From Wenzhouxiangella sp. XN79A (lineage in GTDB: Bacteria; Pseudomonadota; Gammaproteobacteria; Xanthomonadales; Wenzhouxiangellaceae), in NCBI RefSeq assembly GCF_012272825.1, contig NZ_JAAWWS010000132.1, positions 1-64,000 on the forward strand: DNA of 64,000 nucleotides, read 5' to 3'. Below are positions 60,623 to 64,000 of this stretch, one piece after another. Under the pieces are notes generated by a model. It saw nothing but the letters and a program-made list of their open reading frames with translations. It ran no database searches and was not told the origin of the DNA. The stretch's first letter is position 1. Every line of letters begins with the position of its first letter. Made by a program: the position numbers and the translations under genes.

Positions 60623-63600
60623 ATGCGTCCTGTTGGTCTACTCCCGCAGATCCTGCTGATCCTGTTCAGCGCTCCTTCTCTGGTCCACGCATTCCAGCAG
60701 GGCGACTCGGACCTGTATGTGAGTCAGTTCCAGGATCTGATCGCGAATTCCTACGCGGCAGTGGACGACCCGGCACTGGCGCCGGTCGGCCTGCTGTTTT
60801 CCTGTCAGGACACGGGCTACCAGAACTCGACCGGCACGATCCTGGTGACGGAGCCGACACCGACCGTCGTCAGTGCCGCCGAGGTCCAGCAGCGCTGTGG
60901 CGAAACCACGGACTGCGTCATCGGCGGCAACGTCACGCTGAACATGGACGGCGCGCTGAAGGTCCGCTCCCTGGTCGTCCGGGACGGCGGCACCGTCGAA
61001 TGGTCCGACCTGACGCAGACGGCCAGCGACGCCTGGCTGTGTGCGGGCTACGTGGTGGTCGAAGCTGGCGGCACCTGGGAGATGAACCTGCAGGATGCGT
61101 TCAAGCGCGCCTGGATCTACATCATGAACAACGGCGCCACGCACCATGGCCTGCGCACGCGGGCCTTCGGGAGCTTCGTCGAGCATGGCCACCGCACGGG
61201 GCATGGCACGCATCCGTATTTGCGCGTCGTCGGCCGCGAGCTGGACCGGACCTGGTCGTTGCTGGCCGAGCCCTTGCAGCCGAACTCCAGTTCGATCCGG
61301 CTGATCCATGACCCGATCGCGATGGGCTGGCAGGTCGGCGACCGCATCGCCGTGGCACCGACGGAAAGCGGCATGGACGACAACGCCCAGGCGTTCTTCA
61401 TTGCCGGCATGCAGCCGGATGGCACGGTCACGCTGGATCGCCCGAGCAACGGCACATCGACGCACCGGGCCGAGCGCAGCTGGCCCGCGGGAACGGAGGC
61501 GTCCCTCAGAGCCGCGGAAGTGATCAACCTCAGCCGGAATGTCATCGTTACCGGCGATGATTTCGAAGAGATCGCCTGCGACTCGACGCTGGAGGAAAGC
61601 TGGCCCGGCTTCGGGACATCGACGGAAGGCTGCATGTGCACCTCCGACCGAAGCTCCTGCACCATGGGGCTGCACGCCGCCTCGGCGCATGCGGGCTTTT
61701 CGGAAGTCGCCAACGCGCGCATCGAGAAGTGCGGCCAGCGCGGCGTCGAGGGCAAGTACTGCCTGCACTTCCATCACATGTCCGATTGTTCCAACGGCGC
61801 GCCGGGCACGGAGTCGCGGTGCATCTATCGCAACAACGCGATGGAGTTCTCCCAGCAGCGTGGATTGATCCTCCATTCGACCCACCATGCGCAGATCGAA
61901 GCCAACGTCTTCTACGACGTGCGCGGCGCCAACCTGTACATCGAAGACGGCAACGAGATGCTCAACACGGTGGCCTACAACGTGGGCATCTGCCCGCGCG
62001 GCGACAACGGCTGCACGCTGCCCGGGACGTCGAACGGCCAGGCCGATACCTCCCTGAACCAGACGGGCCTGTACATGGAAAGCCCGAACAACCTGCTGGT
62101 CGGAAACCGGATGGTCAACTTCTTCAACGGCATGTTCAACAATGCCGGCAACGGCCGGGCGGCCGTCGCGGGCCAGGTGTGCGGCGGCAATGTGCCGATC
62201 GGCTTCTGGGAGGGCAACACCTTCCACTCGAACGGCCGCTTCGGCACCTACCTGCTCAACGGCAACTTCCCGCTGCGCGACACGGGGCAGTCGGTGGCCA
62301 ACAATGGCACCACGAACGGCGACGACGACTGCGCGGCCTACGATGCCTTCGGCGAAGATGCCGGACTGCCGTCGGTGATCACCAACCACTTCGACTACGG
62401 CAACGCCTTCGTCGGCCAGTACGCCGCAGGCGACATCCAGTACCGGAACCACGTCACGATCGACAACCTGAATTCGATCTACTGGAAAGAGACCAAGACC
62501 TTCCAGGACGGCTGCTCCGCGCACATCAGCGACTCCCATTACGAGGGCGGCAGTGCCGATCTGCCCGACGCGATGGGCGCCTTCATCATCGAAGACACGA
62601 CCTTCGAGAACTACGGGCTGCGCGCGAACCACCACTGTGACGTCGGCGTCACCGGCTACCTGTGCATGCCCCAGTACGTCCTGCACGACGTGACCTGGAG
62701 CAATGGGCGCAGTACCTGGGTCGATTTCGACATCAACAATGGCGAGACCAACAACGGGGGCATCTTCACGCTTTCGCCGGAGAACATCGAAGCCAAGGCG
62801 AACGGCGCGGTCTTCGACATCTTCCCCCCCGAATTCAACGCCGTGGTCGGCGGCAATTTCAACTACCTGCTGGACCTTCCGGAGGAGAACTGCGCGGCCT
62901 CCGGTGCGATCGGCCTGGGCGGGCGCTACGACAACGGCATTCTCTGCGCCGCTCCCTTGACCGCGCTGAAGGTCTTCACGCGCAACCACGCGGGCGGCGA
63001 CTTGGTGATGACCGTGTTCGATCGGCAGACAGGCAATCAACTGGCTCAGCAGACCGTGCCGCACCTGGCGATCACGGATCGCAAGCAGGGCTATTCCGTG
63101 CCCGTCATTTCCGGCGATCGCTACCGCTACGTGCTGACCCTGGCGTCGGGCCAGGACTTCGCTCCGGACTGGGTCATCGATTTCGGTGACCTCACCGTCA
63201 GCAATCGCTGGGGCATCGAACGGCTACACCTCGACGTTCAGGGCCGAAGCTGCAGCGGGACGATCTACTCGAATCACGATCGGCGCTTCTACACCAGCGG
63301 TGATTTCTCCGACGCGATGTGGGGCGGCGGCGCCTGTACGGGCCAGCCCGCCATGCCGGCCTCGGACTGCAGCGTCCGGCCCGACCTGACGGTGAACCAG
63401 AATCCTGCCTACGCCCCCTGGCACGACCGCCTCGATGCGGCTTGCGCGACCGTGGACTGCGGCGACAACGGCGCCTGCTCGGCGCGCTACCTCGGTGCGT
63501 CCCTGCCCGTCCTGCCCACGTATCAGTGCGTCTGCCGGGAAGGCTGGTACGGAGAGACCTGCTCGACGCAGGATCCGGGCGGGCCGGGCAATCCCGGACC

Positions 63601-64000
63601 GATCGAAATCGACGGCCGCATCCTGCGGGTCGACAACGAACCCTATGAGATCCGCGGCGTGGCCTGGAACCCCGTGCCCCGGGGCGGCGTGCACCCCAGC
63701 GATCTCGACTTCTCGGGCTTTGCCGACATCGACATTCCGCTGATGGAGGAGCTGGGGATCAACACGGTTCGGACCTACGAGCCGATCGTCGACACGGTGG
63801 TGCTCGACAAGCTGCACGCCGCAGGCATCAAGGTCATCAATTCGGCCTACAACTGGGGCGGGGCGCCGGTGTCGAGCGTCGATTCCGTGGTCAATGCCGT
63901 TGGCGGGCATCCGGCCATCCTGATGTGGTCCGTCGGCAACGAATGGAACTACAACGGCCTGTACATCGGGCTCGATCTGGCGGCCTCCGCCGCGCGCGTC
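60623..64000 (+). CDS. Secreted G8/beta-helix/EGF/TIM-barrel protein, 3' part outside window
   Basis: 1,126 residues visible, open to the edge. Signal peptide MRPVGLLPQILLILFSAPSLVHA. A G8 domain with flanking strands (about residues 85-260): GGTVEW, GYVVVEAGGTWEM, VGRELDRTWSLLAEPLQ, WQVGDRIAVAPTESG, the layout of CEMIP/TMEM2 and PKHD1 proteins. Then a right-handed beta-helix (about 300-720; NLSRNVIVTGDDF, RCIYRNNAMEFSQQRG, NLYIEDGNEM). A single EGF-like module follows near 942-975 (CGDNGACS, YQCVCREGWYGETC). After a Gly/Pro linker a TIM-barrel glycosidase-like domain starts near 1000 (YEIRGVAWNPVPRGG, INTVRTYEPI, GHPAILMWSVGNEWN, with Glu of GNE as candidate acid/base). Likely an exported polysaccharide-acting enzyme; substrate unknown. 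Confidence 0.85.
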   Translation, partial: MRPVGLLPQILLILFSAPSLVHAFQQGDSDLYVSQFQDLIANSYAAVDDPALAPVGLLFSCQDTGYQNSTGTILVTEPTPTVVSAAEVQQRCGETTDCVIGGNVTLNMDGALKVRSLVVRDGGTVEWSDLTQTASDAWLCAGYVVVEAGGTWEMNLQDAFKRAWIYIMNNGATHHGLRTRAFGSFVEHGHRTGHGTHPYLRVVGRELDRTWSLLAEPLQPNSSSIRLIHDPIAMGWQVGDRIAVAPTESGMDDNAQAFFIAGMQPDGTVTLDRPSNGTSTHRAERSWPAGTEASLRAAEVINLSRNVIVTGDDFEEIACDSTLEESWPGFGTSTEGCMCTSDRSSCTMGLHAASAHAGFSEVANARIEKCGQRGVEGKYCLHFHHMSDCSNGAPGTESRCIYRNNAMEFSQQRGLILHSTHHAQIEANVFYDVRGANLYIEDGNEMLNTVAYNVGICPRGDNGCTLPGTSNGQADTSLNQTGLYMESPNNLLVGNRMVNFFNGMFNNAGNGRAAVAGQVCGGNVPIGFWEGNTFHSNGRFGTYLLNGNFPLRDTGQSVANNGTTNGDDDCAAYDAFGEDAGLPSVITNHFDYGNAFVGQYAAGDIQYRNHVTIDNLNSIYWKETKTFQDGCSAHISDSHYEGGSADLPDAMGAFIIEDTTFENYGLRANHHCDVGVTGYLCMPQYVLHDVTWSNGRSTWVDFDINNGETNNGGIFTLSPENIEAKANGAVFDIFPPEFNAVVGGNFNYLLDLPEENCAASGAIGLGGRYDNGILCAAPLTALKVFTRNHAGGDLVMTVFDRQTGNQLAQQTVPHLAITDRKQGYSVPVISGDRYRYVLTLASGQDFAPDWVIDFGDLTVSNRWGIERLHLDVQGRSCSGTIYSNHDRRFYTSGDFSDAMWGGGACTGQPAMPASDCSVRPDLTVNQNPAYAPWHDRLDAACATVDCGDNGACSARYLGASLPVLPTYQCVCREGWYGETCSTQDPGGPGNPGPIEIDGRILRVDNEPYEIRGVAWNPVPRGGVHPSDLDFSGFADIDIPLMEELGINTVRTYEPIVDTVVLDKLHAAGIKVINSAYNWGGAPVSSVDSVVNAVGGHPAILMWSVGNEWNYNGLYIGLDLAASAARV

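Follow-up and report, generated by a model that had tools for sequence, protein, structure and literature searches.

A bacterial exported protein that joins a cysteine-rich, EGF-bearing G8/CEMIP-type unit to a candidate clan GH-A glycosidase barrel

A gene at the end of the analysed window, the 64,000-nucleotide stretch from Wenzhouxiangella sp. XN79A, encodes an exported multi-domain protein that is distantly related to human TMEM2 (CEMIP2) and CEMIP. It raises the question of what such a protein does in a bacterium, and whether its CEMIP-type beta-helix is an enzyme in its own right. For the human proteins, it is disputed whether they are enzymes and where the active site lies. Niu et al. 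found the TMEM2 ectodomain to be without hyaluronidase activity and without a chondroitinase-B-like Ca site, while intrinsic TMEM2 activity was reported by Narita et al. (PMC10474455), whose accessible text names no catalytic residue. The reported TMEM2 loss-of-function positions, R265, D273 and D286, all lie in lectin-like domain 1, and a 2026 review (PMC13113925) describes the CEMIP mechanism as incompletely defined.

Gene anatomy and the two joined units

The complete gene (contig C15, 60623-64630) runs past the window edge at 64000 and encodes 1335 residues ending in ...AIFNDGFE, with no internal stop, and the multi-domain anatomy that the preliminary description had read from the raw sequence holds for the full-length product (Table 1). 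Residues ~548-935 gave no Pfam match, and comparing residues 548-790 with the C-terminal regions of other CEMIP proteins from bacteria detected no homology (probability 0.2). Downstream of the gene, at the contig end, lies an ORF that by eye resembles a REP-associated transposase (contig 65399-65906, L001 7400-7907).

Table 1. Features of the gene and its product; positions refer to the window up to 64000 and to the contig beyond it
Feature	Position	Strand	Basis or remark
Whole gene	60623..64000 in window, on to contig 64630	+	ATG 60623, stop codon 64628-64630; equals L001 2624-6631
Sec-type signal peptide, residues 1-23	60623..60691	+	Judged by eye
Diverged G8 segment and small beta-sandwich region, residues ~90-230	60890..61312	+	Profile homology
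CEMIP-type right-handed beta-helix, residues 358-541	61694..62245	+	PF24606
His/Glu ladder Y379, H382, H384, H418, E441, E445	61757..61957	+	Proposed active or metal site; 32/32 proteins and TMEM2
Residues ~548-935 (~390 residues)	62264..63427	+	Conserved in five-member family
EGF-like module, residues 941-980	63443..63562	+	Six cysteines
Clan GH-A TIM barrel, residues 994 to ~1310	63602..64000, on to contig ~64552	+	Pfam, profiles, AlphaFold model
Predicted barrel acid/base Glu1107, codon	63941-63943	+	GNE motif
Predicted barrel nucleophile Glu1193, codon	contig 64199-64201, beyond window	+	GEYG motif
FxDGFE tail	contig 64610-64627	+	C-terminal end of window protein

In the genome collection, residues 1-985 matched as a single piece and residues 994-1310 matched separately. 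Relatives of the former unit are encoded by Lysobacter sp. CAU 1642 (77% identity), Teredinibacter sp. ISS155 (58%), Gammaproteobacterium UBA6940 (57%) and a Myxococcales bin (68% over its partial length), and those of the latter by Myxococcota and Spirochaetes (52-62%), with more distant ones elsewhere. Among the 27 loci matched, which do not include the window's own record, 4 carried the unit, 23 the barrel and none both. The cysteine-rich unit was found in five genomes only, the window's included, and searches by taxon returned no new full-length relative of residues 1-985: it was present in 1 of 250 genomes of the window's order (the window's own), in 2 of 244 genomes of the order of Teredinibacter (both already known) and in 1 of 195 Myxococcota genomes (already known). 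No relative was among 80 pattern matches in viral contigs, and plasmids yielded four distant partial matches.

What follows the constant unit is exchanged from one protein to another. The Lysobacter protein (L002) ends directly after the EGF module with ...FDDGFE and has no added domain, and L005 also ends after this module; L003 continues with a poly-Ser linker, a CBM6 domain and more, L004 has an F5/8C domain added at the C-terminus, and the window protein has the GH barrel as its C-terminal addition. Outside the gene, the window and L002 have no neighbours in common, and inspection by eye of the ORFs surrounding L002-L004 revealed no polysaccharide-utilisation cluster.

The EGF module, in which the preliminary description saw a hint of possible domain transfer, belongs to the whole five-member unit. 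The EGF signature consists of six cysteines in EGF spacing with a C-x-C-x2-G-[FYW] end, and the window protein displays it in the form C941-x4-C-x5-C-x16-C-x-C-x8-C980, with C941, C946, C952, C969, C971 and C980 invariant in all five members. The six-cysteine EGF module of the preliminary description is thereby borne out, with a sub-threshold match to EGF_Teneurin (residues 944-981, E 1.4e-4, 22.3 bits versus a curated cut-off of 24.3). These six are part of a set of 26 cysteines invariant in 5/5 members. Unit members have 26-31 cysteines per protein versus 1-8 in the 14 sequences of alignment A5, which are ordinary bacterial G8 proteins, but 12-19 occur in 7 of 10 other relatives, drawn from Myxococcota and from Teredinibacter's order, so that the contrast is one of degree. 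Judged by a search of CC-licensed PMC papers, the unit represents an apparently unreported branch of the bacterial G8/CEMIP proteins, one that is rich in cysteine, contains an EGF module and varies in the carbohydrate-active modules attached to it.

The G8 segment, the beta-helix and its conserved ladder

The Pfam G8 model (PF10162, curated cut-off 22.9) did not match the window protein, which is not classed as having a Pfam G8 domain; the best value among the five family members was E 0.15, in one member. In profile comparison, however, the slice of residues 60-235 aligned with the G8 slice of 14 bacterial proteins at an hhalign probability of 78.8, whereas 50 column shuffles reached 3.7 at most and four other slices stayed below 1, and the family profile aligned to A5 over residues 93-547 (E 1.7e-29). 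This profile homology identifies the segment as a G8 homologue that has diverged beyond the reach of the Pfam model. The G8-type segments first noted by eye thus stand as homologues of true bacterial G8 domains, though not as Pfam-scored ones, and the accompanying CEMIP-like VGDRI strand is present at residues 238-242.

Alignment A5 comprises 14 distant CEMIP-type loci picked by an HxH-type motif, without duplicates and broken frames. All 23 ordinary bacterial relatives scanned passed both PF10162 and CEMIP_beta-hel (14/14 in A5, a count that holds for that choice of loci, and 9/9 more), and, apart from the genome already known, 24 of 195 from Myxococcota carry a distant relative. The earlier statement that G8 proteins are mainly animal was therefore too strong.

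The long beta-helix anticipated from the raw sequence is recovered by PF24606 (CEMIP_beta-hel), which matched residues 358-541 at E 5.7e-23 with 82.2 bits against a curated cut-off of 27.3, and which matched 5/5 family members. Searched against the PDB, the family profile had TMEM2 as its sole match (E 1e-10), in two colinear pieces that pair residues 90-162 with chain positions 47-119 and residues 231-540 with 344-649; TMEM2 numbering is the chain number plus 82, as given in the construct description. The first piece, corresponding to the TMEM2 G8 region, is weak alone (i-Evalue 0.41). Between them, 224 TMEM2 residues (chain 120-343), including lectin-like domain 1, fall in a gap opposite 68 residues of the window protein. 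The window protein lacks lectin-like domain 1, and with it R265, D273 and D286, and is not classed as a CEMIP/TMEM2 hyaluronidase. As all reported activity-killing positions lie in this domain, the hyaluronan substrate suggested earlier is not supported. An ILEI/lectin match was found in none of the 28 CEMIP-type proteins scanned, the window protein included.

The window protein thus shares with the human TMEM2/CEMIP ectodomain (PDB 8C6I) a G8 segment continuous and colinear with a right-handed beta-helix, but differs by the missing lectin-like domain and by the added EGF module and GH barrel, and is very distant from it. In the tree, human TMEM2 is no closer to the unit than bacterial G8 proteins are, on very long branches where the grouping with L030 and with others may be spurious. 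The ordinary bacterial G8 plus CEMIP_beta-hel proteins (e.g., L041, L096, L104) have the same N-terminal order, whereas they pass the Pfam G8 model, have no EGF match and mostly contain fewer cysteines. An AlphaFold model of residues 1-990, built from five sequences, reached a pLDDT of 38.5, and no fold claim rests on it.

Within the helix, Y379, H382, H384, H418, E441, E445, N448 and N453 are invariant in 32/32 unique bacterial proteins at ~20% identity, with R413 kept in 30/32 and H535 in 28/32. These proteins (27 unique and 5 family members) are ORFs chosen by profile score alone, which 38/38 loci provided; L047 among them is a broken frame without the last positions. At the aligned places, TMEM2 has Y547, H550, H552, H585, E608, E612, N615 and N620, so that the His/Glu ladder is common to the unit, the ordinary bacterial G8 proteins and the human protein. 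Followed by eye along the repeat register, H382, H418 and E441 look as if they share the register of three successive helix turns. We propose the ladder Y379/H382/H384/H418/E441/E445 as a candidate active or metal site, although its invariant residues could be structural.

The domains that accompany CEMIP-type helices include CBM6 after a poly-Ser linker (L003) and F5/8C (L004) in the unit family, as well as CBM5/12 with CBM10 (L096) and malectin (L097) in ordinary relatives. In these proteins the helix sits where the catalytic domain of a CAZyme would be, which points to a catalytic module. CBMs of these kinds are usual on enzymes acting on plant or fungal walls, and by analogy their presence on relatives suggests plant, fungal or algal glucans as the substrate.

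The glycoside hydrolase barrel and its likely substrate

A GH-like barrel containing a GNE motif had been described from the sequence. Glyco_hydro_2_C matched residues 1077-1201 above its cut-off (E 9.8e-9), NCBIfam gave weak GH2-type matches only, and the full-length protein has both predicted catalytic glutamates, E1107 in GNE and E1193 in GEYG. The preliminary description had named the lack of a G8 score together with a non-catalytic barrel as what would speak against it; the Pfam G8 score is indeed lacking, while the barrel retains both glutamates. The barrel alignment (A4) has 16 rows, the window and 15 of the 23 barrel loci, with multi-stretch or partial sequences left out (L014, L015, L018, L020, L022, L024, L026, L028). 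E1193 and N1106 are invariant in 16/16 rows and E1107 is kept in 14/16, being Asp in L023 and L027.

Against the PDB, the best matches of the 16-row profile were GH158 (E 1.6e-27, 99.8 bits) and GH157 (E 1.9e-27, 99.6 bits), with a beta-glucuronidase at 88.3 bits. In the LaGH157 E224A structure, the position replaced by Ala is the one aligned with E1193, and the motif ADxWWK is common to the barrel and GH157. The AlphaFold model of the barrel (pLDDT 84.2, pTM 0.88) had GH158 as first Foldseek match, and in VIA-align GH2 beta-glucuronidases (Z 28.6, rmsd 2.6, 274 aligned) and GH157 (Z 28.2, rmsd 3.0, 292 aligned) were tied. From its sequence and predicted structure, the domain is a clan GH-A TIM barrel with a putative acid/base Glu after Asn and a putative nucleophile Glu. 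It has these features in common with the GH157 (LaGH157) and GH158 endo-beta-1,3-glucanases, but its identity to GH157 is only ~18-20% in structural alignments.

In the Spirochaete locus L013, a GH16 laminarinase-like domain, two CBM56 and one CBM6 precede the barrel. This context, together with the GH157/GH158 matches and the E1193 alignment, favours beta-1,3-glucan, and of the two substrates initially considered for the protein, beta-glucan is the better supported for the barrel. The glucan substrate is not certain, since in structural comparison GH2-type beta-glucuronidases do as well as GH157.

CEMIP and FAM3 have a lectin-like fold known as ILEI. A 2576-residue protein of the Omnitrophica locus L014 (2-7729) contains two barrel stretches and three ILEI domains, a second, independent link between the barrel and a CEMIP-related lectin-like fold.

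Proposed function, alternative explanations and the C-terminal tail

We consider it reasonably probable that the window protein is a secreted two-headed polysaccharide-degrading enzyme combining the GH barrel with the helix module. In the barrel, Glu1107 would serve as acid/base and Glu1193 as nucleophile of a retaining glycosidase of clan GH-A, for which beta-1,3-glucan, in the form of laminarin, callose or the glucan of fungal walls, is the most likely substrate. The G8/CEMIP-type helix would most likely also be catalytic or, if not, serve in binding, its site being the ladder on three successive turns, and the EGF module may serve as a disulphide-stapled cap or spacer before the exchangeable C-terminal modules.

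It is possible, though somewhat unlikely, that the helix unit is instead a non-catalytic binding or adhesion scaffold in which His and Glu hold a structural metal or the turns, leaving the GH barrel as the sole enzyme. The TMEM2 observations of Niu et al. agree with such a role, and the occurrence of the unit alone in 1/5 members (L002) fits a scaffold as well as an enzyme; against it stand the intrinsic activity reported by Narita et al., the CBMs on relatives that already supply binding, and the retention of six polar residues (three His, two Glu, one Tyr) in every ladder protein despite the low identity, seemingly beyond what a scaffold needs. Degradation of hyaluronan or another glycosaminoglycan, with the helix cutting and a GH2-like beta-glucuronidase barrel trimming the products, appears quite improbable. 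No solved relative is closer to the helix than TMEM2, and GH2 beta-glucuronidases are on a par with GH157 in VIA-align, but the window protein has no lectin-like domain 1, the CEMIP-type proteins scanned have no ILEI/lectin match, GH158/GH157 rank above glucuronidases in sequence profiles, and sister proteins carry CBMs of the kinds usual on plant- or fungal-wall enzymes.

A broader possibility, which we hold short of probable, is that throughout the CEMIP/TMEM2/bacterial G8 superfamily the true catalytic or metal centre is the ladder. The bacterial members would then form an unrecognised polysaccharide-cleaving family, and animals would have acquired the lectin-like domain afterwards to bind hyaluronan. 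Such a later addition would account for mutations in that domain that alter activity although its residues are not catalytic. A lectin-free bacterial relative, if it can be expressed, and residues conserved to human TMEM2 make the question testable by point mutation.

A chimeric contig joining two unrelated genes would account for the exact fusion being seen in no other genome of the collection. Such an assembly error is highly improbable, as the gene is one uninterrupted frame of 1335 codons in a genome that is 99.97% complete with 0.21% contamination, and as FxDGFE, an order-specific tail, stands behind the barrel here and immediately behind the EGF module in the Lysobacter homologue, the arrangement that a genuine insertion ahead of the tail would produce.

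FxDGFE followed by a stop is common to unrelated exported proteins (the window gene, L002 8965-8985, L065-L074, L076-L091), and a crude script flagged a signal peptide in 12 of 16 carriers examined in genome G045. The corresponding DNA pattern occurs in 30 of 61 relatives, with 17 matches each in G045 and G056 and 3 in all for the backwards control; in 182 other genomes of the class it occurs in 6, with one match each, the backwards control giving 8. The tail had no Pfam or NCBIfam match in the window protein, and no paper on such a tag was found. By its distribution it looks like an order-specific sorting tag, with a probable role in exporting the protein or retaining it at the surface. In three distant G8 proteins of the window's order (L053, L056, L058), a variant of the tag, IFxDSFE or IFxNGFE, stands just after the signal peptide and not at the C-terminus.
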